Assembly: GCA_021014945.1 (NCBI GenBank)
Contig: MU266593.1
Span: 1 to 35,872, forward strand
Source: Leucogyrophana mollusca
Taxonomy: Eukaryota; Basidiomycota; Agaricomycetes; Boletales
Direction: 5' to 3'
DNA: 35,872 nt
Part shown: piece by piece, positions 1,801-19,070 of the stretch
How the letters are laid out: the number at the start of each line of letters is the position of its first letter
Position numbering within the stretch: the stretch's first letter is position 1
Notes under the pieces: model-generated
What the model was told of the DNA's origin: nothing
The model's database searches: none
Seen by the model: only the letters and a program-made list of their open reading frames with translations
Program-made: the position numbers and the translations under genes

Positions 1801-3848
1801 ATGCAAGGCCTTTTCTGCCTCTTCCTCCTGCTCACAGCGTCCACAGTGCTCGCTCTCAACCAATCCTCGCCCCGCTGCCGTTGCCTATACGGTGACGCCT
1901 GCTGGCCATCCACCTCCGACTTCTCCTCCCTCCAGTCACAGATCTCCCAGCCTCTAATCTACCCCACCCCCACAGCCTCCGCATGCTACCCCCTCTCCAG
2001 TCCCTCCGGGAACTGCACCGACATCCAAGCGAACTGGTACAACGGGACCTGGCGCGCGGACCGCCCGGGATCGATGGACATCACCAACTACGAGAGCTTC
2101 ATCTTCCGAAACGGGTCGATCAGCGCGTGTTATATGAACACGACGCTAGGGGCGCCGTGCGAGCAAGGGAACGTGCCGGTCATCGGTGTCGATGCGCGTT
2201 CCGTGGGCGACGTACAAGCAACTGTGAAGTTTGCTGTGAGCCATAATCTTCGCGTGGCTATCAAGAATACAGGGTAAGGAAGCGCCTTTCTAGCTGTATC
2301 CTTGCTGACCCGCCCTGCAAGGCATGACTTCACGGGGCGGAGCGCAGCTCGCAATTCGTTTATGCTATGGACGCATCATCTCAACAACATTACTTACAAC
2401 TCCACATTTGCTCCGGAAGGGGCGCCTCCAACGGAGACATACGATGGTAAGCACGTCGTCTTTCCAAGTGGTTTTTATTGACCCTAGACGTCGACGTATA
2501 TGTCTACAGCTATCACAGTCGGTTCAGGAGTGCTATGGAACGACGCGTATAACACCGTGGCAGCCGAGGGGCGTATGCTAATTGGCGGTATAAGTGTAGG
2601 GGGTTCCACCGGTGCTGCTGGGGGGTGGCTGCAAGGCGGAGGACACAGTACGTTTTCTCCCTTGCACGGTCTCGGTAAGTTAGCGCCAGTAGTTACACGA
2701 AACTATTTAATTCAACCAGTCCATCTCTTGACCAGGGGTGGACAATGTCATCGAGATCAAGCTTGTCACAGCTGCTGGCGAATACCTTACAGCCAACGCC
2801 CGCCAGCACTCCGACCTATTCTGGGCTCTCCGCGGAGGCGGCGGCGGAACCTGGGGCGTCCTAATCTCCGTGGCCTACCAAACGCACCCCACATTCCCCG
2901 TCACCAACGTTTTCTTCAACGCCACATCCACCAACACCACAGTGATAAAAAGGCTATTCACGGAATTCGTCCGCATCCACCCCGCGCTGTCCGCGGCCTC
3001 CTTCGGCGGGTACGCGACCGTCACAAACGCCTCGCTCAACTTCTTCTATAGCCTCCCGAATGGGACGGACGCGCGTGCGAACGCGAGCTTTGAGTCGGTC
3101 TTTGGCCTGGCGAGGAACCTCACGGCGGAGGGACTTGAGATCGCCGCACAGGAAACGGGGACGTATGAGTCGTTCAACCAGTGGTACCAGAACATACCCG
3201 CAACAGGCATCGTTGATGGTGGCATCCTAGAAATCGCCTCCCGACTCCTTCCAACAGCGCTATTCGCCGAGGATGAATACGAAGCCTTCGCGGACAAGCT
3301 GTTTACCGTCGCTGGTAATGAGATCGGTTGGAAGTACGTCCTTGCACTTCGCCCCTCCCTCCACGCACACCTGCTAAACCCGCGACCCCTCTTTCGCCGT
3401 CAGCCTCGTTGGTGGTGGAGCCGTGTCGAAAGTCAACCCCGGCTCGACCGGCCTCAACCCGGCTTGGCGGGAGTCCTTGGTGGAAGCGGTATGGGGCATA
3501 CAGTGGGGGGAAGGCGCGACGTTCAGCGAAATCGAGCGCTTAAGAAGCGAGCTAGCCGTGACGATGGCACAGGTATCCGCTATCGTGCCCGGGGCTGGTT
3601 CCTACTTCAACGAGGTGCGCAACGAGCCCGTCTACCCTACATACCCATTTCGCGCAGATGATTGAGCTCGGTCTCGTTGGCAGGGATCTTTGTTCGAGCC
3701 CACGCCGAAGCAGACTTACTTCGGCTCTCACTACGATCGGTTGAAGGGGATCAAGGACGAGTATGACTCCACTGGGTTGTTTATTGTTGGGGCTGGGGTT
3801 GGGTCCGATGAATGGGTCGATAATCTGAACTGTCGACGTTTCGACTGA
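1801..3848 (+). CDS. Secreted FAD-linked oxidase (PCMH domain plus BBE C-terminus)
   Basis: Exons 1801-2273, 2322-2446, 2510-2674, 2736-3333, 3404-3614 and 3684-3848 join in frame to 578 residues. Residues 1-19 form a hydrophobic signal peptide, followed by the family's usual CRCLYGDACWPS start. The FAD domain carries NTGHDFTGRS; H159 matches the histidine that holds FAD covalently in berberine-bridge/VAO enzymes. GGGHSTFSPLHGLG and FWALRGGGGGTWGV follow. The C-terminal BBE part contains GSYFNE and LFIVGAGVGSDEW. Where bicovalent members have a cysteine, this one reads HGLG (about H252), so a single histidyl link is likely. Length is typical for secreted basidiomycete members. Substrate is unknown; the family oxidises alcohols, sugars or secondary metabolites with O2. 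The exon 5/6 junction (3614/3684) is the least certain, because a second acceptor lies near 3657. Confidence 0.9.
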
Positions 3849-9143: not shown

Positions 9144-10239
9144 ATGACGTTGCTTCACAACATGATAGAAACTACCGACATGCCTTCCCGACGCCGCCTC
9201 CAGCAGTGTGCGATCGCCATCAGCATCTCCAGCGTATTCTACAACGCGGCGGAAGGCGCCATCTCGGTCCTCTTCGGCGTCGACTCGGGTTCCCGGTCGC
9301 TGGTTTTCTTCGGTATTCAATCGGTAATTGAGGTTCTATCGTCTGTTATCGTGGTATGGCGATTCTGGCGCTCTGGGAAGCCAGGTGACGAGACCAGCGG
9401 TGAGGGTGATACCAAGGACATGAAGTATGTTGGGCGCCGATGCCAGTCCCTGCCATGATACTTACTTTCACTGCAGACTCGAGAAGGTAGCAACCATGAG
9501 CATCGGTTCTCTCCTCGTCATGCTTGCGCTCGCGGCGATAGGCACGTCCATCGCCTCGCTCGTCGCGCACGACCACCCAAGCCCCTCCAACGCCTCCCTC
9601 ATCATCGCCTCCGCCACGCTGTTCATCATGTTCCTCTTCTGGCTGCCCAAGCGGTATCTCGCGCGCGCGCTCGACTCGAGCACCATGGCGGGCGAGGCAC
9701 TCTGCACGCTCTCGTGCATGCAGTTCAGCGCCGTGCTCCTCGTCGGGTCGCTGGTGTACCGCGTGTGGCGCGGAGGGTGGTGGGTCGACGCGGCGACGGC
9801 AATTGTGATTGCGCTGCTGTTTGGCTGGGAGGGCGTGAGGATGGTGAGGTGGGCACGCAGTGATGCGTTTGATGGGGGGTGTGGCTGTTGCTCGGGCGGG
9901 GAGGGAAAGGCGGACGGCCTGGTCAGAGTGCAGGCATCCGCGACACAGCTTCGTGGCTGCGCCGATACGGAGAGCTGTCAGTGCTCAGAGAAAGATCCCG
10001 AGCTGCAGATACCAGTGACGCAGCGTCGTGGCTGCGCTGATACGGAGAGTTGTCAGTGCTCAGGGAAAGATCCCGAGCTGCAAACACCCACGACGCAGAG
10101 TCGTGGCTGCGCCGATACGGAGAGTTGTCAGTGTTCAGAGACAGATCCTGAGGTGCAGGCACCCACGACGCAGCGTCGTGGCTGCGCCGATACGGAGAAT
10201 TGTCAGTGCTCGGAGAAGGATCCCGAGGCCGCGGAGTAG
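9144..10239 (+). CDS. TMEM163-like CDF-family membrane protein with cysteine-rich repeat tail
   Basis: Exons 9144-9424 and 9477-10239 give 347 aa. Six hydrophobic segments are visible, beginning at LQQCAIAISISSVFYNAAEG, SLVFFGIQSVIEVLSSVIVV, SIGSLLVMLALAAIGTSIAS, SLIIASATLFIMFLFWLP, LCTLSCMQFSAVLLVGSLVY and WWVDAATAIVIALLFGWEGV. The order and the D/E residues in ALDSSTMAGEAL and GGWWVDAATA fit the cation-efflux fold of TMEM163-type proteins, which bind or move Zn2+ across membranes. After the last helix come a CGCC cluster and four 25-residue repeats starting at R253, R278, R303 and R328, each with RGCADTE(S/N)CQCS. The ATG at 9144 is the first one just before the basic leader RRR; a longer N-terminus from an upstream exon is possible. 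Direction and metal are inferred from family only. Confidence 0.75.
9952..10236 (+). repeat. 75-bp coding tandem repeat, 4 units, Cys-rich tail
   Basis: Four in-frame 75-bp units encode RGCADTESCQCSE(K/T)DPE followed by a spacer ending (P)xTQ. Each has three cysteines in a C-x5-C-x-C pattern, giving 12 in the tail. Unit starts at 9952 and 10027 confirm the 75-bp period. Two further units lie in the fragment at 13674-13983. Confidence 0.9.
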
Positions 10240-10271
10240 GCGTGCGGTTTCTCGCGCTGCTTCGGTGTCCA

Positions 10272-10985
10272 TACTACGACTTACTTGCTGACCTCGTCGG
10301 CCATGTTATGTATCAATCTGCAACTGAAGGCACGTGTGCCGCCGTGACGTCCTTTGAGCGTTGTCCAGACCGCCGATATGCTGGAGGCTTGGACTCGAGA
10401 ATCGGCGGCCGTTGGTCTTCCGTATACGCCCAAATACATAGGAGCCCGACATATCAGTATGGAGCTTCCATCCTGAGCCCTCACCCGGATTCCGGTCCCT
10501 CCAGATGCGTAAGCACGACGCGTTGCAGCCCCGAGCTTGGGGGAACTCGAAGGAGATCGTATCCAGGGACCCCCGAATGTCGGGTTCGAGTCGGGACGGT
10601 TGGCATCACGATGTGCTTCAGCCATACAGCCACTCTTGAGCTTGTCAAACTTCGAGCGAGCTGTAACCAGCGGGTGCGATGTCCTTCCGTGTTTTTTCTG
10701 ACACGATTTGGTACTGGCTGGGATGCCGTTCATATCGAGGAGCTTCAATGTAGCCTTGCTGCCCTCATGATGCATGAAGCCTGGGTCAGTCTAGCTGGTT
10801 CCCTTCCCAAATATGTCTTCGAGCACCACGAACTTGGCATAAAATTCCACTTCGATTCACCTCGCAGCAACACTAGCTGCTGCTGTTCTGCCTCCCTTCG
10901 AGGTGGCCTGTCCAAACTTACTCGAGCACGGCCTCGCATCACCCAATGCCAGTCATCGTACCCGTGGTCTTGGATTCATGGTATT
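10272..10985. repeat. Segmental duplicate R, copy 1 (matches 17020-17755)
   Basis: The block begins with ACTACGACTTACTTGCTGAC, just past the TMEM163-like stop codon, and is nearly repeated from about 17027. Both copies share GTATCAATCTG, the CGAGCTTGGGGG stretch and a long GTAACCAGCGGGTGCGATGT region. Open frames of 86-265 codons occur on both strands, but their lengths change between copies, so I do not call a gene. It probably began as 3' flanking DNA of the TMEM163-like gene. Confidence 0.75.
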
Positions 10986-11008
10986 CATTACCAATGATTG
11001 GCTCCTGG

Positions 11009-11263
11009 CTGCAATCACGCTGGATTCAATCACTAGGGAGCACACCAAGACACAGTCCGTCATCAATTCGCGCCAGCCATATTTCGTACAAGTCACAACA
11101 CCATATCACGCAACCAAAGGAACATTTCTGACCCGCCCGACCCTCCTACCACCAACGACCCAAGGCAGAGACATTGTATGGACGGGCACATTCACGGCAC
11201 GCCTGGAGATCCCGTCGTCAGCGGAGCGGCCGAGATCAACATGAAGATATCCGACGTACACTT
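11009..11263. repeat. Segmental duplicate b, copy 1 (3' flank of peptide gene 1)
   Basis: This ~250-bp block recurs at 14020-14263 and 17772-18027. In every copy it sits immediately downstream of the stop codon of the minus-strand peptide gene. It holds the common string GACATTGTATGGACGGGCAC and is probably the 3' untranslated and flanking DNA of that gene. Confidence 0.75.
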
Positions 11264-12113
11264 CTAGGCGGTGGAGTCCTCGACATCGGATTCATATTCA
11301 TCCGCACCTACATGATACTGTATCACGAGAACGATGTCAACCTACCGCAGTCTCGGACGTTGGAATGTTACGTACGATCTGTGTTGTGAGAAGCAACGGG
11401 AAATCAGCCTGTTGTACAAGAAAAATTCCAAGATAACAGAGCATGACTTACGCCGCCCTATAGCGTGACACCCGACGGACGTCAGCCCGTTGCGCAAGAA
11501 AAAACAAAGTGTTGCAATATGACTCACCACATGCTATGTTTCGAGAAGCGACCGAAAATCAGCCTGCAACATAATACAAATATAAGGGTATTGGACATTG
11601 ACTGACTTCAAAGGGCTCTCCTAGTGATCATCGTCGTTAACAGGGTGGCGGAGGTCATGACAATGCTCGGCTTACGCTTCTCAACAGTAGAGTGCTCGAC
11701 ACCGGATTCATCCACAGATACCTTATACTGTATCACGAGAAGGATGTCAACCTACCACACAAGACAAATCTCGGACGTTGGAATGTTACGCACAGACTGT
11801 ATTGGGAGCAACGGGAAATTAGCCTGTCGTACAAGAACAAATATAAGGTGACAGAGCATGACTTACGCTGCCCAACTATATCGAACACGCAACAGACGTC
11901 AGTCAGTCGCGCAAGAAAAACTAAAGTGTTGGAATGTGACTCGCATTATGCTACGTTTCGAGAAGTGACCGAAAATCAGCCCCTCGTACGAGAGAAATTT
12001 CAAGGTAACAGAACATGACTTACGGTTACCTCGCCCCCTTCCTGCACAGGTAAAGCATGGGCGCTTGTTATGAACACAGCGAGAGCTACGATGGAAGCGA
12101 AAGCGAGTTGCAT
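11264..12113 (-). CDS. Secreted repeat-peptide precursor, copy 1 (Lys-Arg-processed, micro-exon gene)
   Basis: Minus-strand exons: 12024-12113, 11945-11950, 11867-11875, 11794-11796, 11676-11727, 11607-11620, 11528-11533, 11452-11457, 11376-11378, 11264-11317. They join to 80 residues and end in TAG. Residues 1-20 are a signal peptide (MQLAFASIVALAVFITSAHA) followed by LPVQE. Two similar units follow. The first contains YKVSVDESGVEHSTVEKR, whose final Arg codon is split over an intron; the second contains EPFE...YHVGADEYESDVEDSTA. The Lys-Arg is a typical Kex2 site, so a secreted precursor giving two short acidic peptides is plausible. All exons of 3-9 nt are multiples of three, so they might instead be skipped inside longer introns; the two main repeat exons remain in frame either way. 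The second exon needs a GC donor. The family is unrecognised, though the layout resembles fungal KEP or dikaritin-type precursors. Confidence 0.7.
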
Positions 12114-12690
12114 TGTAGATGATATCGATCTATGGAAACGATGGTTTGGCTGGTGGGCTGGGGTTCCCTTTATATGCTGTTGACGAGTTTGCATGCTGGA
12201 GTCACGCAATGGATGCTCCTGACCATAATTGTGTTATCCCCGATCCTTCCAACCCACATCTGCAAAATCCTTTCCAGCAGCGCATGATAAGAGTCCTACT
12301 CGGAGGCGAGTACAACTGCGAGGCAACGTACATCGTTCGGCATTTGCAAAACGCCCAAATGACTCAACCACATCAAAGCTTGAAGTCGAGAAGTCTGCTG
12401 TAAGGTCGATGGAGCTTGCCGATTGTGGTGATGTAGGTAACCGTGTGATCAGAGTAGGTGAAATCTGTTGCCTTAACGATCCAAGTCCGATTATCCCTAC
12501 TTACCTGCAAATGATCCAACCATGGGAGGGGATCTTGCCTCGCGCAACAGAAAATGCGTGTGTAGGAGTCAGGTTGCGGATCAGCACATGGAGCTACCAG
12601 ATTTGGGGGCGACACCTTCATCCAGTTTGGCCAGGAGAGATAGCTGGTTTGGGTTGTCTAGGGATGCTCCCCCTCTGGTCGCCTCGCATG
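12114..12690. repeat. Segmental duplicate d, copy 1 (promoter side of peptide gene 1)
   Basis: This block recurs at 15156-15700 and 18559-19070, each time directly upstream of a peptide gene. The first ~120 bp carry the TATA box. The farther part holds CAAATGATCCAACCAT and the frame PNLVAPCADPQPDSYTR on the minus strand, also seen in copy 2 with changes. I cannot assign a protein to it. Confidence 0.7.
12168..12177 (-). promoter_or_regulatory. TATA box of peptide gene 1
   Basis: On the minus strand the sequence reads GCATATAAAG, about 55 bases before the start codon at 12113. The same box at the same relative place occurs before peptide genes 2 and 3. Confidence 0.65.
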
Positions 12691-12734
12691 TGACTCGGTG
12701 TTCTGTGGGTCATCAATGAAATTTGAAAACCTAA

Positions 12735-12990
12735 GGGCGAATTCCTGACCCTCTTCGATGCATCGGATCTGAGGGCCACCCGAAGGGCGCGCCTTCGCCG
12801 CGCGGATATGGATACTTTATTGAATCTCGAGAGGCAGAAGCTCAGAACCAGCGGGATGATGCGTATGGAGCGTGAGTTCCCCGATACACTTTCGAATCCT
12901 GGGCCCCAGATGTTCCAACTCAAGGGAGATGGATCTTGTTCGTGCGCCTCTCGCCCCACCTCGCATTCCGCTAGCTGGTTTTTGGTATAG
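12735..12990. repeat. Segmental duplicate e, copy 1
   Basis: This block matches 15836-16085: GAATTCCTGAC...CTTCGATGC, then GGCAGAAGCTC and CTCAAGGGAGATGGA, ending at a CGCTAG motif. In copy 1 the A element follows immediately; in copy 2 a different dispersed repeat follows. No gene is supported. Confidence 0.6.
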
Positions 12991-13505
12991 GACGAGTGCT
13001 CTCCCCACTTGTGGAGGATACAAGGCGGTGTGTTCTGCGCTGGGATGACGATATATCGCTATCTCGGCGACCTCGGCCAACGAAGAGGTAGTTCGGACAT
13101 GAAGTTGATGTGATCATGTAGCAGTGCGTGTACATTGCAGAGCACCCAATCCAGAGGGAAGATATTTTGGTCGGCACGTACCAAGGCCCCTCCGTTCCTG
13201 TCGCTCCCCGCTTATCATTCGGTGATTCATCATTCGGTGATTCCGTACTCGTGATGGGAAGGCTCGACGCACCTGACTACGCGCCGTCCGTGAGCCACCG
13301 TAGTCATCCAGATGGGCAGACTCATCTCTATTATGTTTTCACGCCTTCGATAGCTGGACAGCCCCGGGGGACGTTCACTGCTGATTTGAATACCCTGCCT
13401 GACGAGGGGGGACCGTCGCGCGAGAAGGAGATTCTTGGGAAGTTGGAACAGTCTTTGCGAGCAAGACCTCAGTGGGCAGCGATGGGCGCCTGTCTCGAGC
13501 ACGTG
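12972..13505 (+). pseudogene. A element, direct copy B
   Basis: It matches the inverted copy at 7740-8460. EHPIQREDILVGTYQGPSVP is encoded from about 13140 and is followed in the same frame by PRLSFGD and, after a duplicated TCATTCGGTGAT, by SVLVMGRLDAPDYAPSV. In-frame stops precede the EHPIQ stretch (TAG near 13116), and the 3' part found in the other two copies is missing. It is probably a dead copy. Confidence 0.45.
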
Positions 13506-13673
13506 GCTTGATGTTCTTTCCGTCGTCGTGAATGTTCTCCGTCATCACGAACACCTCTTCACCCCTCCCTCCCTCTTCTCCCCTCCCTCCCCTTTCCCTA
13601 TCCCTTCGCTCCTCCGGTCGCGTTGCTTTCTGTCTTTGCTAATCCCTAACGCCTTTCTCTCTGCTCTTCGTTG

Positions 13674-13983
13674 GGTCGCTGGTGGGTCGACGCGGCGACG
13701 GCGGTGGTGATCATGCTGCTGTTTGGCTGAAAGGGCGTAGTGAGGTGGGCGCGCAGTGATGCGTTTGGCGGTGTGTGGCTGTTGCTTAGACGGGGAAGGG
13801 AAGGCGGACGGCCCGGTCAGAGTGCAGGCATCCGCGACGCAGCGTCGTGGCTGCGCTGATATGGAGAGTTGTCAGTGTTCAGAGAACGATCCCGAGGTAC
13901 AGGCACCCACGACGCAGCGTCGTGGCTGCGCCGATACAGAGAGTTGTCAGTGCTCGGAGACAGATCCTGAGGCCGCGGAGTAG
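13674..13983 (+). pseudogene. 3' fragment of the TMEM163-like gene
   Basis: Bases from the WWVD region of the last helix to the stop codon are copied from 9740-10239. A short deletion lies at the start, and an in-frame TGA replaces the Trp codon after LLFG. Only two of the four cysteine-rich repeats remain, and small deletions shift the frame between helix and tail. An ATG at 13756 opens a 75-codon frame through the two repeats to the same AAE end, but without any membrane part. It is most simply a duplicated, broken gene end. Confidence 0.8.
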
Positions 13984-14019
13984 GCGTGCAGTTTCTTGCA
14001 GTGCCTCGGTGCCCAGTTC

Positions 14020-14263
14020 AACCACTAGGGAACACAACATAAAACAGTCCATCATCAGTTCGCCAACCAAATTTCGTACAAGTTACAACACCATATCACG
14101 CAACGAAAGCAATATTTCTGAGAGTGAGAACCCGCCCTGACCGTCCAACTACCAACGACCCAACGCAGAGACATTGTATGGACGGGCACCTTTACGGCAC
14201 GCCTGGGGGTCCCATCGTCAGCGGAAGGGCCAAGACTAACTTGGAGGTGTTCAATGTACACTT
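14020..14263. repeat. Segmental duplicate b, copy 2 (3' flank of peptide gene 2)
   Basis: Same block as 11009-11263, following directly after the pseudogene end; the R block present in the other two units is missing here. Confidence 0.7.
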
Positions 14264-15155
14264 CTAGGCGGGGGAGTCCTCGACATCGGATTCATCCACA
14301 CCTATGTCATACTGTATCATGGGAACGATGTCAACCTACCACACAGTCTCGGATGCTGGAATGTGACTCACACGAGGCGGCCCCTCCTGTGTTTCGGGAG
14401 GCGGCGAAAAATCAGCCTGGTGTACATGAAAAACTCTAAGAATGTTACTCACCCAATCCTAAGTTTCGGGGAGCATCCGAAGATCAGCCGCCATATGATA
14501 CAAATATCAGGGTATTGGACGGTGACCGACTATGGTGGGCTCTCCTAAGGATCGTTGCTGTCAACAGCGTGGCGGATGTCGTGACAATGCTCGACTTACG
14601 CTTCTCGACACCGAATTCGTCCACAGGTGTGTCATACTGTATCACAAGAAGGATATCAGCTTACCGCACAAGACAAACTCGGGCGTTGTAAGGTTAAGCA
14701 CCTTTTGTATTTTGAAAAACAACAGAAAATCAGCCTGATGTATATGAAAAACTCCAAGAATGTGACCCACAGAAAATTACGTTTCAGGGAGCGTCCGAAG
14801 GTCAGTCTGACATGTAAGATAAACAGGGTATTGGACGGTGACTGACTCTGGTGGGCTCTCCTAGTGATCAACGTCGTCAAAAATGTGGCGCAGATCAATA
14901 ACAACACCTAACTTACGCTTCTCAGAACGGACACGGTCAGCCTATTGCGCAAGAAGAAGCAAAGTGTTGGAAGGTGACTCGCGTTGTGCTACGTTTCGAG
15001 AAGCGACCGAAAATCAGCCCGTCATACAAGAAGAATTACAGGGAAACAGAATATGTATGACTTACGTTTGGCTGAAACTCTTCATGCGCAGGTAAAGCGT
15101 GGATGCTTACGACGAAGGCAGCGAGAGCTACGATGGAAGTGAAAGCTAGTTGCAT
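14264..15155 (-). CDS. Secreted repeat-peptide precursor, copy 2
   Basis: Minus-strand exons: 15066-15155, 14983-14988, 14917-14941, 14847-14860, 14600-14636, 14531-14544, 14453-14458, 14372-14386, 14264-14311. They join to about 84 residues with a terminal TAG. The signal peptide is MQLAFTSIVALAAFVVSIHA. Then come ADRVRSEKR and EPTR, YDTPVDEFGVEKR and EPTI, and the terminal YDIGVDESDVEDSPA. Two Lys-Arg sites would release three peptides. The stretch between 14846 and 14637 is treated as one intron; it contains decayed copies of the intron and micro-exon blocks (an acceptor CGTAG has become CGTAA near 14785), so an extra small exon is possible. The first unit looks shortened by a deletion that fused a small exon to the EKR end yet stayed in frame. 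Confidence 0.62.
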
Positions 15156-15700
15156 TGTGGTAGTAGGGACGATATTGATCTAGAAATACAATAATTTGGC
15201 TGGTGGGCTGGGGCTCCTTTTATATGCTGTTGACGAGTTTGCAGGCTGGGGTTGCGCAATGCGTGCTCCTAGCCATAAGCGTGCGATCCTCGAGCCTTCC
15301 AACCAAATCTGCAAATTCCTTTCTGGCGGGGCATAAGAGTCTCCGCGGAGGCAAGCACAACTGAGAGGCAACGTACCTCGTTCGGCATCTGCAAAACGCC
15401 CAGAGTTTTCGACGATATCAGATCCCGAAGTCGAGAAGTCCGCTGCAAGGGCGATGGAGCTTGCTGATTGCTGGAACTGTCGGCTGTGGTTTCGGTGGTA
15501 GGTAACTGTGATCAGAGTGGGTAAATTCTGTTGCTTTAACGACCCAGGGCTGATATCTACTTGTCTGCAAATGATCCAACCATAGGAAAAGATCTTGCCC
15601 TGCGCAACAGAAAACGCGAGTGTACGGGTCAGGTTGCGAATCAGCAAACGAAGCTACCAGATTCGGGGGCGACACCATCATTCAGTTTGGCCAGGAGAGA
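15156..15700. repeat. Segmental duplicate d, copy 2 (promoter side of peptide gene 2)
   Basis: It matches 12114-12690. The minus strand keeps a frame reading SPPNLVASFADSQPDPYTR, parallel to copy 1 with scattered changes. I see too little to call a gene. Confidence 0.65.
15217..15226 (-). promoter_or_regulatory. TATA box of peptide gene 2
   Basis: Minus strand GCATATAAAA about 62 bases before the start codon at 15155, at the same relative place as in the other two copies. Confidence 0.62.
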
Positions 15701-15835
15701 CAGGTACGCTACTCGGGAGCTTGTGAGGCTGTGTTAAGAAGGAGAGACACCCCCACGGCCGGCTGTACCTCCTCGGTCCACCCATGCGTGGATCGAACGC
15801 TCGCGCGCGAGCACATGCCACGTCATTCGCGTTCG

Positions 15836-16085
15836 TGGGGAATTTCTGACGCCCTTCGATGCGTTGGATCCGAGAGCGATGGGCCGGGCGGCCTGAAGGG
15901 CGTGCCTTCGCTGCGCAGATATGGGAACTTCATTCTCGAGGCAGAAGCTCGGGACCAGCGGGATATCGCGTATGTAGCGTGGGTTCCCTGATGCACTTTC
16001 TGGGTTCCTGATGTTCCATCTCAAGGGAGATGGACCCTGCCCGCGCGGCTCTTGCTTGGCCTCGTATTTCGCTAGTTTTTCCTCA
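15836..16085. repeat. Segmental duplicate e, copy 2
   Basis: It matches 12735-12990, up to and including the CGCTAG end motif. Confidence 0.6.
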
Positions 16086-16089
16086 ATTT

Positions 16090-16275
16090 TCGGCCCTCCG
16101 AATTTTTGGTACACTGTATGATTTTCCTCGAAATTGAGCATTTTGGCCACCCCCGAATTCTGGGATCTGGAGATGGAAACTACATACTGGTATGCCGGGC
16201 CGGGGACCTGCCAAAATGCAGGTGAGTTGTCCTGCTGGATGGTCCCATGGATTTGTGCGTCCCTAGACTTCCTGG
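16090..16275. repeat. Dispersed repeat f, copy 1 (matches 20135-20300)
   Basis: Shared strings include GAAATTGAGCATTT, GGCCACCCC, CCTGCCAAAATGCAG and TTGTCCTGCTGGATGGTCCC, in the same order and spacing as at 20135-20300. It is a short dispersed repeat of unknown class, possibly a fragment of a larger transposon. Confidence 0.65.
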
Positions 16276-16354
16276 TGCTTCACCTTGCTTCACTCGTAGT
16301 AAGCTGTAGTAAGTAGAGCTCGTGCGACGTGAGCCGAAGCCGCTTGAGATGCCC

Positions 16355-17012
16355 GCCTATCTGTAGCTGAGCTAATAACATCCCGGAGGATGCCGAGGGG
16401 CAGTTTAGGTGCGCAATTACCTATAAAAGGCGGACATTGGCAATGTTCAGTTCGTTCTGTTCCAACACCACGATGCACGGGATGTCGCGAGAGTCGACGT
16501 CCCAGATTTGACGGTCAAACCTGGGGCTGTTGTCTCGCGTATTGCCCATTCAACCACCCACCGACCAATCTGACCTCACTGAGATGAATGTTGCGAGAGT
16601 CAACGTCCCAAATGTGACAGTCTCATTTGGGACTGTCGATTCCTGTACCATTCATTCATCCATCCATCCATCGTGACTCTGTAGACGAAGCTTCAGATAT
16701 TTAGCTTTAATGGGATGTCGTATATGGTGTTGCGGAACCTTGAGCTCTGTAGCTCCCTCCTTCCATTCATCCATCGATCGGCCCGATCAGATCAGATTTC
16801 AGCGTGCACTGGCACACGTTAGCACTCCCCATTGTCATCAGCGGTACTCAAGCATGAGCCGTACCGCTGGAGGCGGGTGCTGCGGTTAATCCCCAAATGC
16901 GAACCACGTATAGCTTGGGATCTAGTATCATCCTCTCGTTCGTTCGCCATCGTTGCATGTACCAGGTGGATGGGCACTCATCTTCACCTTTGGTAGACAC
17001 CTATGTGAGTTA
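16355..17012 (+). repeat. Hairpin-bearing dispersed element, copy 1
   Basis: It matches 29405-30162 over most of its length, starting near GCCCGCCTATC and ending near CACCTATGTGAGTTA. It holds a TATA box (CCTATAAAAGG, about 16421), a short ATG frame MHGMSRESTSQI, and two hairpins: 16501-16525 (CCCAGATTTGAC / GTCAAACCTGGG, one mismatch) and 16605-16633 (GTCCCAAATG / CATTTGGGAC, perfect). Both hairpins follow a GCGAGAGTC-ACGT leader. No terminal repeats or transposase are visible. Confidence 0.7.
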
Positions 17013-17019
17013 CATTGTC

Positions 17020-17755
17020 TATACTACGACTTGCTTGCTGACCTCGTCGGTCATGTTATGTATCAATCTGAAACTGAACGTGGCGTTCTTTGGGCATTGT
17101 TCAGACTGACGATATGCTGGAGGCTTGGACTCGAGAGTCGGCGGCCGCTGGTCTTCCGTGCACGCCCAGATACATACGACCCCAACATATCAGCATGGGG
17201 CTTCCATCCCAGACCCCTGCCCCAATTTCGGGCCTCCACGGCAAAAACGTTCAGCGTAGATCCCCGGATCTCGGCACCTTCAGACGCGTAAGTACGATGC
17301 GTTGCAGCCCCGAGCTTGGGGGCCTCGAAAGAGGTTGTATCCAAGGACTCTCGAGTCGGGACGGTTGGCATCACGATATGCTTCAGCCGTACAGCCGCCC
17401 TTAAGCTTGTCAAACTTCGAGCGAGCTGTAACCAGCGGGTGCGATGTCCTTCCGTGTTTTTTCTGACACGATTTGGTACTGGTTGGGATGCCGTTCATAT
17501 CGAGGAGCTTCAACGTAGCCTTGCTGCCCCCATGATGCATGAAGCCTGGGTCAGTCTAGCTGGTCCCCTTCCCTAATATGTCTTCGAGCACCACGAACTC
17601 GACAAAATTCCACTTCGATTCACTTCGGATCACCTCGTGGCAACACTAACTGCTGCTGTTGCCGCCTCCCTCCGAGGTGGTCTGTCCAAACTTACTCGAG
17701 CACGGCCTCACATCACCCAATGCCACAGTCATCGTACTCGTAGTCTTAGAATTAT
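17020..17755. repeat. Segmental duplicate R, copy 3
   Basis: Near match of 10272-10985, beginning with CTATACTACGACTTGCTTGC. It abuts the hairpin element, whose insertion or recombination seems to mark the left edge of this unit. Confidence 0.75.
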
Positions 17756-17771
17756 GGTCTCGTTGCCAAGG

Positions 17772-18027
17772 CTGTATTCACGCCGGATTCAACCACTAGG
17801 GAACACGACATAACACAGTCCGCCATCAATTCGCGCCAACCATATTTTGTACAAGTCACAACACCATATCACGCAACCAAAGCAACATTTATGACCCGCC
17901 CCGACCCTCCTACCACCAACGACCCAACGCAGAGACATTGTATGGACGGGCACATTGACGGCACGCCTGGAGATCCCGTCGTCAGCAGAGCGGCCAAGAT
18001 CAACGTGAAGACGTTCAACATACACTT
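17772..18027. repeat. Segmental duplicate b, copy 3 (3' flank of peptide gene 3)
   Basis: Same block as 11009-11263, ending at the stop codon of peptide gene 3. Confidence 0.7.
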
Positions 18028-18558
18028 CTAGGCGACGGAGTCCTCGACTTCGGATTTGTAGCTTACGATATACTGTATCACGAGAAGGATGTCATCCTAC
18101 CGCACAGTCTCGGACGTTGGAATGTTACACACCTTCTGTGTTGTGAGAAGCGCTCGAAGATCAGTCTGACGCATACTACAAATGTTAGGGTATTGGACGT
18201 TGACTGACTCCATGGGGCTCTCCTAGTGATCGTTGTCGTTAATAGCGTGGCGAAAGGCATGACAATGCTCGGCTTACGCTTCTCAACAGTAGAGTCCTCG
18301 ACACCGGATTCGTCCCAAGTTGCGATATACTGTATCACGAGAAGGATGTCAGCCTACCGCACAAGACAAATCTCGGACGTTGGAAGGCTACGCGCCTTCT
18401 GTATTGGGAGCAACCGGAAATTAGCCTGTTGTATAAGAACAATCGCGAGGTAACAGAATATGACCTACGTGCACCCCACGCTGTTCTTGCGCAGGTAAAG
18501 CATGGACGCTTGCGACGAAGACAACGAGAGCTGCGATGGAAGCGAAAGCGAGTTGCAT
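18028..18558 (-). CDS. Secreted repeat-peptide precursor, copy 3 (shortest)
   Basis: Minus-strand exons: 18469-18558, 18396-18398, 18278-18329, 18209-18222, 18133-18135, 18028-18072. They join to 68 residues with a terminal TAG. The signal peptide is MQLAFASIAALVVFVASVHA, followed by LPAQEQRGVH. The first repeat is YIATWDESGVEDSTVEKR, then EPHG, and the last is YIVSYKSEVEDSVA. This copy lacks the 6- and 6-9-nt exon blocks of copy 1, so the leader exon meets the 3-nt exon (AAG) directly. Both 3-nt exons read Lys; skipping them would keep the frame and merge two introns into about 130-nt ones. The first 3-nt exon needs a GCGCGT donor and is the weaker of the two. This is the cleanest copy, and a good one for testing the model. 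Confidence 0.68.
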
Positions 18559-19070
18559 TGTGGTAGTAGGGACGATATCGATCTATGGAAATGGTGATTT
18601 GGCTGGTGGCCTGGGGCTCCCTTTATATGCTGTTGACGAGTTTGGATGCTGGGGTCGCGCAATGCATGCTCCTAGCCATAAGCATGCGATCCTCGAGCCT
18701 TCCGACCCACATCTGCAAAATCCATTCCAAGCAGAGCATGATAAGAGTCCTCCTCGGAGGCGAGCGCAACTGCGAGGCAACGTACCTCGTTCGGCATGTG
18801 CAAATTCTCAACGACATCAAAGCTTGAAACCGAGAAGTCTGCTGCAAGGTCGATGGAGCTTGCCGATTGCTGGAACTGTCGGCTGTAGTATTGGTGATAA
18901 GCAACTGTGTGTTCAGAGTATGTAAAATCTGTTACCTTAACGATTCAAGGCTTATCTCTACTTATCTGCAAATGATCCAACCATAGGAAAAGATCTTGCC
19001 TCGTACAACAGAAAATGCGTGTGTCCGAGTCGGGTTGCGGATCAGCACATGAAGCTACTAGATTCGGGTT
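18559..19070. repeat. Segmental duplicate d, copy 3 (promoter side of peptide gene 3)
   Basis: It matches 12114-12690 up to about 19065, where it is joined directly to the interior of an A element at CCTGTCACTCCCC. Confidence 0.65.
18621..18630 (-). promoter_or_regulatory. TATA box of peptide gene 3
   Basis: Minus strand GCATATAAAG about 63 bases before the start codon at 18558, as in copies 1 and 2. Confidence 0.65.

Follow-up and report, generated by a model that had tools for sequence, protein, structure and literature searches.

What do the three similar genes encode that lie in tandem on the minus strand between positions 11,264 and 18,558 of a 35,872-nucleotide stretch of Leucogyrophana mollusca DNA (the window; GCA_021014945.1, contig MU266593.1, positions 1 to 35,872), and how are their repeats put together? 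We consider it likely that they are tandem copies of a precursor for a ribosomally synthesised and post-translationally modified peptide (RiPP), of the type found in Kex2-processed repeat proteins (KEPs) and dikaritins. The evidence consists of open frames joined through consistent splice sites, related genes elsewhere in the genome, an enrichment of family members near UstYa genes, and cores that are under purifying selection in two array genes. The precursor family is real and has an unusual exon anatomy.

A first-pass annotation had placed three minus-strand genes with a common leader and TATA box in this region, and these are present: copy A at 18558-18028 (68 aa), copy B at 15155-14264 (84 aa) and copy C at 12113-11264 (80 aa). 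When the strand was read, MQLAF...HALP leaders, TATA boxes, Tyr exons, EKR ends and stops were seen in all three, with 69, 69 and 61 nt from TATA to ATG in copies A, B and C. The leaders are hydrophobic and end in ALP, as judged by eye rather than by a signal-peptide predictor. Each copy contains two Tyr exons, and copy B has an extra unit, ADRVRSEK, that lacks Tyr. Protein searches returned six deposited hypothetical proteins of L. mollusca (P0001-P0006), among which P0002 (77 aa) corresponds to copy A and P0005 (69 aa) to copy B. The features of the three copies, with their sources, are as follows.

18622..18627, minus strand: copy A TATA box (sequence)
18469..18558, minus strand: copy A exon 1, leader MQLAFASIAALVVFVASVHALPAQEQRGVH (splice search; same exon in P0002)
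18396..18398, minus strand: copy A 3-nt micro-exon AAG (K), GC donor (search with stop set; not in P0002)
18278..18329, minus strand: copy A Tyr exon YIATWDESGVEDSTVEK plus first Arg base (search; in P0002)
18209..18222, minus strand: copy A Arg-completing exon (R)EPHG (search; in P0002)
18133..18135, minus strand: copy A 3-nt micro-exon AAG (K) (search; in P0002 the end of a 33-nt exon, TDLRALLTTQK)
18028..18072, minus strand: copy A terminal Tyr exon YIVSYKSEVEDSVA and stop (search; in P0002)
15219..15224, minus strand: copy B TATA box (sequence)
15066..15155, minus strand: copy B exon 1, leader MQLAFTSIVALAAFVVSIHALPAHEEFQPN (hand model; in P0005)
14983..14988, minus strand: copy B 6-nt micro-exon CACAAC (HN), GC donor (search and hand model; skipped in P0005)
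14917..14941, minus strand: copy B exon ADRVRSEK plus first Arg base (hand model, the intron before it only 41 nt; skipped in P0005)
14847..14860, minus strand: copy B exon (R)EPTR (hand model; skipped in P0005)
14600..14636, minus strand: copy B Tyr exon YDTPVDEFGVEK plus first Arg base (hand model; in P0005)
14531..14544, minus strand: copy B exon (R)EPTI (hand model; in P0005)
14453..14458, minus strand: copy B 6-nt micro-exon GATTGG (DW) (hand model; in P0005)
14372..14386, minus strand: copy B 15-nt exon EGPPR (hand model; in P0005)
14264..14311, minus strand: copy B terminal Tyr exon YDIGVDESDVEDSPA and stop (hand model; in P0005)
12169..12174, minus strand: copy C TATA box (sequence)
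12024..12113, minus strand: copy C exon 1, leader MQLAFASIVALAVFITSAHALPVQEGGEVT (splice search)
11945..11950, minus strand: copy C 6-nt micro-exon CATAAT (HN), GC donor (splice search)
11867..11875, minus strand: copy C 9-nt micro-exon TTGGGCAGC (LGS) (splice search)
11794..11796, minus strand: copy C 3-nt micro-exon TCT (S) (splice search)
11676..11727, minus strand: copy C Tyr exon YKVSVDESGVEHSTVEK plus first Arg base (splice search)
11607..11620, minus strand: copy C exon (R)EPFE (splice search)
11528..11533, minus strand: copy C 6-nt micro-exon CATGTG (HV) (splice search)
11452..11457, minus strand: copy C 6-nt micro-exon GGCGGC (GG) (splice search)
11376..11378, minus strand: copy C 3-nt micro-exon ATC (I) (splice search)
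11264..11317, minus strand: copy C terminal Tyr exon YHVGADEYESDVEDSTA and stop (splice search)

All non-terminal Tyr exons of the window copies end in GAGAAGC/gtaag (slashes mark exon borders here and below), in phase 1, and the exon GAGAGCCCNNNNNA that follows the EKR donor finishes the Arg, adds E-P-x-x and restores phase 0. The Lys-Arg (KR) codons of the processing sites are themselves interrupted by an intron. Joining one Tyr exon directly to the next was rejected, because EKR ends in phase 1 and the frame breaks. Micro-exons sit ahead of the Tyr exons: in copy C the first is preceded by HN, LGS and S and the second by HV, GG and I, and in copy A a K micro-exon precedes each; the small exons of copy B are HN, and DW together with EGPPR. 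Each copy has one GC donor. A window repeat is split over two to five exons and the Arg of its EKR is completed by the next exon, contrary to the earlier view that each repeat is its own exon. The micro-exons and the Arg-codon intron went unstated in that annotation, though its three protein lengths imply them.

Splice-site models were trained on 82 introns from six genes outside the window, all of them among the 17 modelled below (36 introns from C391a and C270a, 46 from C41, C270b, C86a and C86b). The full frames proposed earlier (80, about 84 and 68 aa) were recovered by different routes: copy C (10 exons, 80 aa) by the search with no stop set, copy A (6 exons, 68 aa, score 19.9) with the stop set, and copy B by a hand model only, built from 9 exons with one 41-nt and one 210-nt intron and one GC donor. 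Search paths for copy B with the stop set measured 91 aa, or 68 aa once introns of up to 230 nt were permitted. As a null, 200 dinucleotide shuffles of each copy were searched with the stop set, and none of the 200 reached the observed best score in any copy (shuffle maximum versus observed: A, 13.5 versus 19.9; B, 9.4 versus 43.4; C, 9.7 versus 66.0). The score of 43.4 belongs to the 91-aa path of copy B, the hand-built 84-aa model itself being unscored in this test.

Relatives with leaders and EKR/gtrag arrays were found on other contigs by DNA, pattern and leader searches. The leader query, with E up to 10 allowed, matched 22 places on 11 contigs (best 3.4e-10, weakest 0.24); a short nucleotide pattern for the start of the leader matched 1988 times and was discarded. 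Seventeen genes were modelled, including copies A, B and C as C267A, C267B and C267C. Seven models came straight from the splice search (C267C, C270c and C270d; with the stop set, C267A, C391b, C391c and C289), three (C58, C391a and C270a) are search results in which end exons were substituted by hand, and the others (C41, C270b, C86a, C86b, C231, C193 and C267B) are hand or pattern assemblies, C231 and C193 having given 78 and 50 aa by search alone. C86b is counted among the models and is absent from the 22 leader matches. Leader matches outside the models are two on C47 and those at C270:13196, C32, C193:52051 and C41:116926, and a gene at C41:111.6k, for which the search yielded no model, is uncounted. 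All 13 upstream regions examined have a TATA box at -57 to -80. The C58 gene contains EPIGE/FS/YFLASE six times, EKR-ended in five, C391a repeats KGYDITGGD 12 times across 25 exons, and C41 has units such as EPLVAGTAG/ITLYSADISEESTIEKR; C58, C270b and C41 hold more repeats than window copies A and C. Most family units contain at least one Tyr, which is absent from some short ones (ADRVRSEK in copy B, LDSTPEK in C270b). A profile search of annotated proteins gave no other basidiomycete among the matches listed.

The anatomy of the window genes recurs in this family. Its 17 models comprise 198 exons, and 59 internal exons of 9 nt or less are found in 13 of the 17 genes (35 of 6 nt, 17 of 8 nt, 6 of 3 nt and 1 of 9 nt). 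Lengths of 3, 6 or 9 nt, multiples of three, account for 42 of the 59, and the remaining 17 are the 8-nt exons. Introns are in phase 0 (n=112) or phase 1 (n=69) and never in phase 2, and no model has an internal stop; the phase-1 introns split an Arg codon, as read by eye from the exon lists. C41, C86a, C86b and C391b have the same two-exon units, yet no exon shorter than 17 nt, and a few short units are single exons, such as EPLGSDVADVEK in C193. The micro-exons together with the intron inside the Kex2-site Arg codon are the unusual trait; what is new is the gene anatomy.

A family search for UstYa (PF11807) matched at least 35 places in the genome, and 27 of these 35 spans were used for a distance test, the other eight being further pieces on C364 and C417. 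UstYa lies within 10 kb of 14 of the 22 leader matches, such zones making up 1.15% of the genome; the count is 10 of 22 at 5 kb and 16 of 22 at 15 kb, with leader matches within one cluster not independent of each other. UstYa is also present on seven of the 11 contigs with a leader match. Two UstYa fragments with two HxxHC motifs, presumably typical of the UstYa family, come from the leader-bearing loci on C193 and C41. Separately, C364 and C417 hold UstYa gene groups with the best PF11807 scores, and neither contig has a leader match of the peptide family.

For C391a and C270a, core units were picked by their AAAG start, length and donor, leaving the amino acids free. The proportion of synonymous differences (pS) was 0.65 in both and that of non-synonymous differences (pN) 0.04 and 0.05 (11 and 10 units, respectively); the core codons vary almost only synonymously, indicating purifying selection on the cores. 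The aligned exons of C193 and C289 have 4 mismatches in 162 bases, their aligned introns 38 in 247 (gap positions 3 and 5). Within the first Tyr exon, copies A and C differ at 6 of the 12 bases that make up the four codons following Tyr and at 2 of 40 in the exon remainder; the figures are 24 of 191 for three introns and 14 of 199 for the 3' flank. A Fisher test for the 12 post-Tyr bases, which were selected after the sequence had been seen, gave p 0.001 against the exon remainder and 0.003 against the introns. The related genes, the UstYa association and these selection patterns in relatives support a putatively secreted, Kex2-type multi-core precursor, as had been proposed at first pass.

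Several observations weigh against this reading of the window genes. With no stop set, the search favours a 77-aa chain with another end for copy A (score 25.1 versus 19.9) and a 70-aa chain with a different end for copy B; the splice search by itself does not prove the ends of copies A and B. Splice sites, including acceptors, are lost in copy B, which looks decayed, and 7 of the 17 gene models are hand or pattern assemblies. KEPs, as defined in the main text of PMC7329392, have a signal peptide and three or more tandem repeats, each 8 aa or longer, between dibasic sites cut by Kex2; copies A and C, with one KR each, have two units and fall below three, and copy B has two KR in its hand model. 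Leader pS/pN between the three copies is 0.12/0.12, 0.12/0.10 and 0.24/0.14, little purifying signal, which weakens the case for all copies being in use. The PF11807 search found no UstYa on the window contig (C267), and tblastn of that contig with four UstYa fragments (those with the HxxHC motif, from 10 loci scanned) gave short chance matches only, best E 0.32. No UstYa was found on C58, C231 or C32 either, making four of the 11 leader-match contigs in all, and C58 is among the window genes' nearest relatives by DNA. The window copies are among the least certain members of the family, having few repeats, no UstYa match on their contig and one partly decayed copy.

These gaps in the UstYa pattern agree with the view that the genes are ordinary linear KEPs, whose peptides are secreted unmodified as signals or surface-active agents and for which UstYa is irrelevant at the window locus. 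We regard this as quite possible, if somewhat unlikely. Linear KEP-derived peptides are already known in Agaricomycetes, according to the main text of PMC9769878; the proximity of UstYa to 14 of 22 leader matches, and the keeping of at least one Tyr in most units, as for an oxidase substrate, though some short units lack it, argue otherwise.

It is distinctly unlikely that the window copies represent a side branch in decay, left over from a dikaritin cluster that has lost its other genes. The absence of a UstYa match on the contig, the acceptors lost in copy B and a leader pN near pS would fit decay, as would two further features: the window copies lack the KR found after the leader in relatives, and neighbouring transporter gene fragments are duplicated too. 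Against this, all three copies retain an open frame and a TATA box and share their stop context, and the flank of the Tyr exon diverges less between copies A and C than the introns do.

The deposited models preserve Tyr units and acidic tails from the genes modelled here and include some of the micro-exons, others being skipped in frame. P0002 and P0005 share with the window models the leader, the Tyr units, an REPxx exon and the stops, with small exons skipped or added. Mapped to the window, P0002 has 5 exons (introns of 139, 55, 43 and 60 nt) and P0005 6 exons (introns of 429, 55, 72, 66 and 60 nt), the latter retaining the 6-nt DW exon. In the single C58 unit compared by eye, nothing in frame corresponds to the extra P0002 exon, TDLRALLTTQ. 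P0001 (C270d) has the modelled 3-nt V and 6-nt FG exons and omits PP and VG; P0003 (C270c) begins inside the leader, has PP and VG and omits V and PG. Protein searches found no deposited copy C, which as a query on its own returned nothing at E 1. Regulated micro-exon skipping is possible. That the micro-exons are not exons, the deposited skips being correct and single long introns joining REPxx to the Tyr exon, is highly improbable: P0001-P0005 each omit some modelled micro-exons, but P0001, P0003 and P0005 themselves contain 3- or 6-nt exons, all six C58 units have their 6-nt FS exon between an acceptor and a GTGAGT donor, and in C270b nine exons of 6 nt lie between GT-AG introns, with every intron of that gene 54-73 nt long.

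On the KEP/dikaritin reading, transcription, processing and cyclisation are predicted. The leader would direct the precursor into the secretory pathway, and Kex2 would cleave after Lys-Arg to free short peptides; those following a KR would have a Glu-Pro start, a variable stretch around Tyr and an acidic tail, as in the predicted peptides EPFEHVGGIYHVGADEYESDVEDSTA and EPIGEFSYFLASEEGTAVE. In most family members, UstYa oxidases encoded nearby may cross-link the Tyr. For the window copies, UstYa from elsewhere may act or the peptides may remain linear. The exon cassettes, with a phase-1 intron in the processing-site Arg codon and phase-0 introns bounding the micro-exons ahead of Tyr, could therefore be gained, lost or skipped without loss of frame. 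A further proposal, which we make tentatively and hold to be rather doubtful, is a fungal counterpart of micro-exon genes, in which variable inclusion of 3-9 nt exons directly ahead of Tyr would allow a single RiPP precursor gene to yield many different peptides, probably cyclic, and cassettes bounded by introns in the Kex2-site Arg codon would drive rapid gain and loss of cores.

Elsewhere in the window, an open frame at 9424-10239 (plus strand) matches a cation-efflux family (PF01545) and has four copies of RGCADTE(S/N)CQCSxxDPE in its C-terminus, possibly a metal-binding tail; parts of it are duplicated at about 13.68-14.01 kb. The region 10266-19068 contains nested duplications that carry the three genes, in pieces about 70-88% identical, and other parts of the window are found again at 29.4-30.2 kb and, in inverted orientation, at 7.7-8.5 kb. 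At 22.5-23.8 kb both strands have long, repetitive open frames, minisatellite-like by eye. Pieces at 1801-3661 (plus strand) resemble a secreted FAD-linked oxidase, a likeness that we assume from a motif, and the two of these pieces that were searched against Pfam matched no family.

One survey, covering 1461 fungal assemblies, found DUF3328 genes near 103 of 1680 (6.1%) basidiomycete KEPs, and suggested that the basidiomycete enzyme motif differs or that cyclisation hardly occurs; its input, as the main text describes it, was annotated proteins with at least three repeats (PMC7329392). Precursors split by micro-exons would be mis-modelled or missed in such surveys, which may explain how this kind of peptide gene escapes notice in mushroom-forming fungi. 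With exons of 9 nt or less in 13 of 17 precursors and UstYa near 14 of 22 leader matches, basidiomycete cyclic RiPPs may therefore be undercounted. The arrays also make micro-exon splicing directly testable in a mushroom-forming fungus.

The first-pass annotation knew of no described family built in this way. The arrangement of leader, Tyr cores, acidic flanks and KR is, however, that of KEPs and dikaritin precursors, as the cited parts of PMC9769878, PMC6339444, PMC7329392 and PMC9233826 describe them. Dikaritins (ustiloxin, phomopsin and asperipin-2a) share the leader, repeated Tyr cores, Kex2 sites and, near many relatives, UstYa/DUF3328, and YDI in several units here recalls the dikaritin YXI cores given in the main texts of PMC6339444 and PMC7329392. 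Multiple Tyr-containing cores are present in copies A, B and C; UstYa/DUF3328 close to the precursor is found within 10 kb for the 14 leader matches and not on the window contig. Unlike dikaritins, the repeats are cut by introns into micro-exons and the host is a basidiomycete. The KEPs of Agaricomycetes likewise have a leader and repeats between dibasic sites, as the main text of PMC9769878 reports, whereas copies A and C are limited to two units each. Ascomycete Kex2-repeat proteins from Nemania and Lasiodiplodia (P0007-P0009; profile E 1.6e-4 to 0.098) show the same order of core, acidic flank and EKR, although their cores are FKYPF, they were compared as proteins and the likeness may rest on composition. 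Lys-Arg does lie at the end of the conserved flank, as first noted, but this is common to the related genes and P0007-P0009. MSDIN/cycloamanide precursors, also a source of basidiomycete ribosomal cyclic peptides, differ in that they are not known to have a secretion leader or a Kex2 step and are processed by prolyl oligopeptidase.

As to the exons, the main text of PMC9769878 uses neither 'exon' nor 'splic' and has 'intron' a single time, in a cloning method; that of PMC6339444 lacks all three terms, and that of PMC7329392 lacks 'intron' and 'exon'. No description of exon-split Kex2 repeats was among the matches listed in the open-licence literature. Microexons of 2-10 aa were reported in 2005 in basidiomycete P450 genes, in the cited part of PMC1184071, and a 2024 abstract states that functional microexons had not previously been described in filamentous fungi, its introduction citing predicted fungal microexons and tests in S. 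pombe (PMC11121469). Very small exons are thus no novelty in themselves; no description was found of their systematic use within peptide repeats. A possible parallel in gene anatomy is offered by the micro-exon genes of schistosomes, which encode secreted proteins built from symmetric micro-exons. No homology is claimed; in the present family, 13 of the 17 gene models have exons of 3-9 nt, whose inclusion varies between the deposited models.

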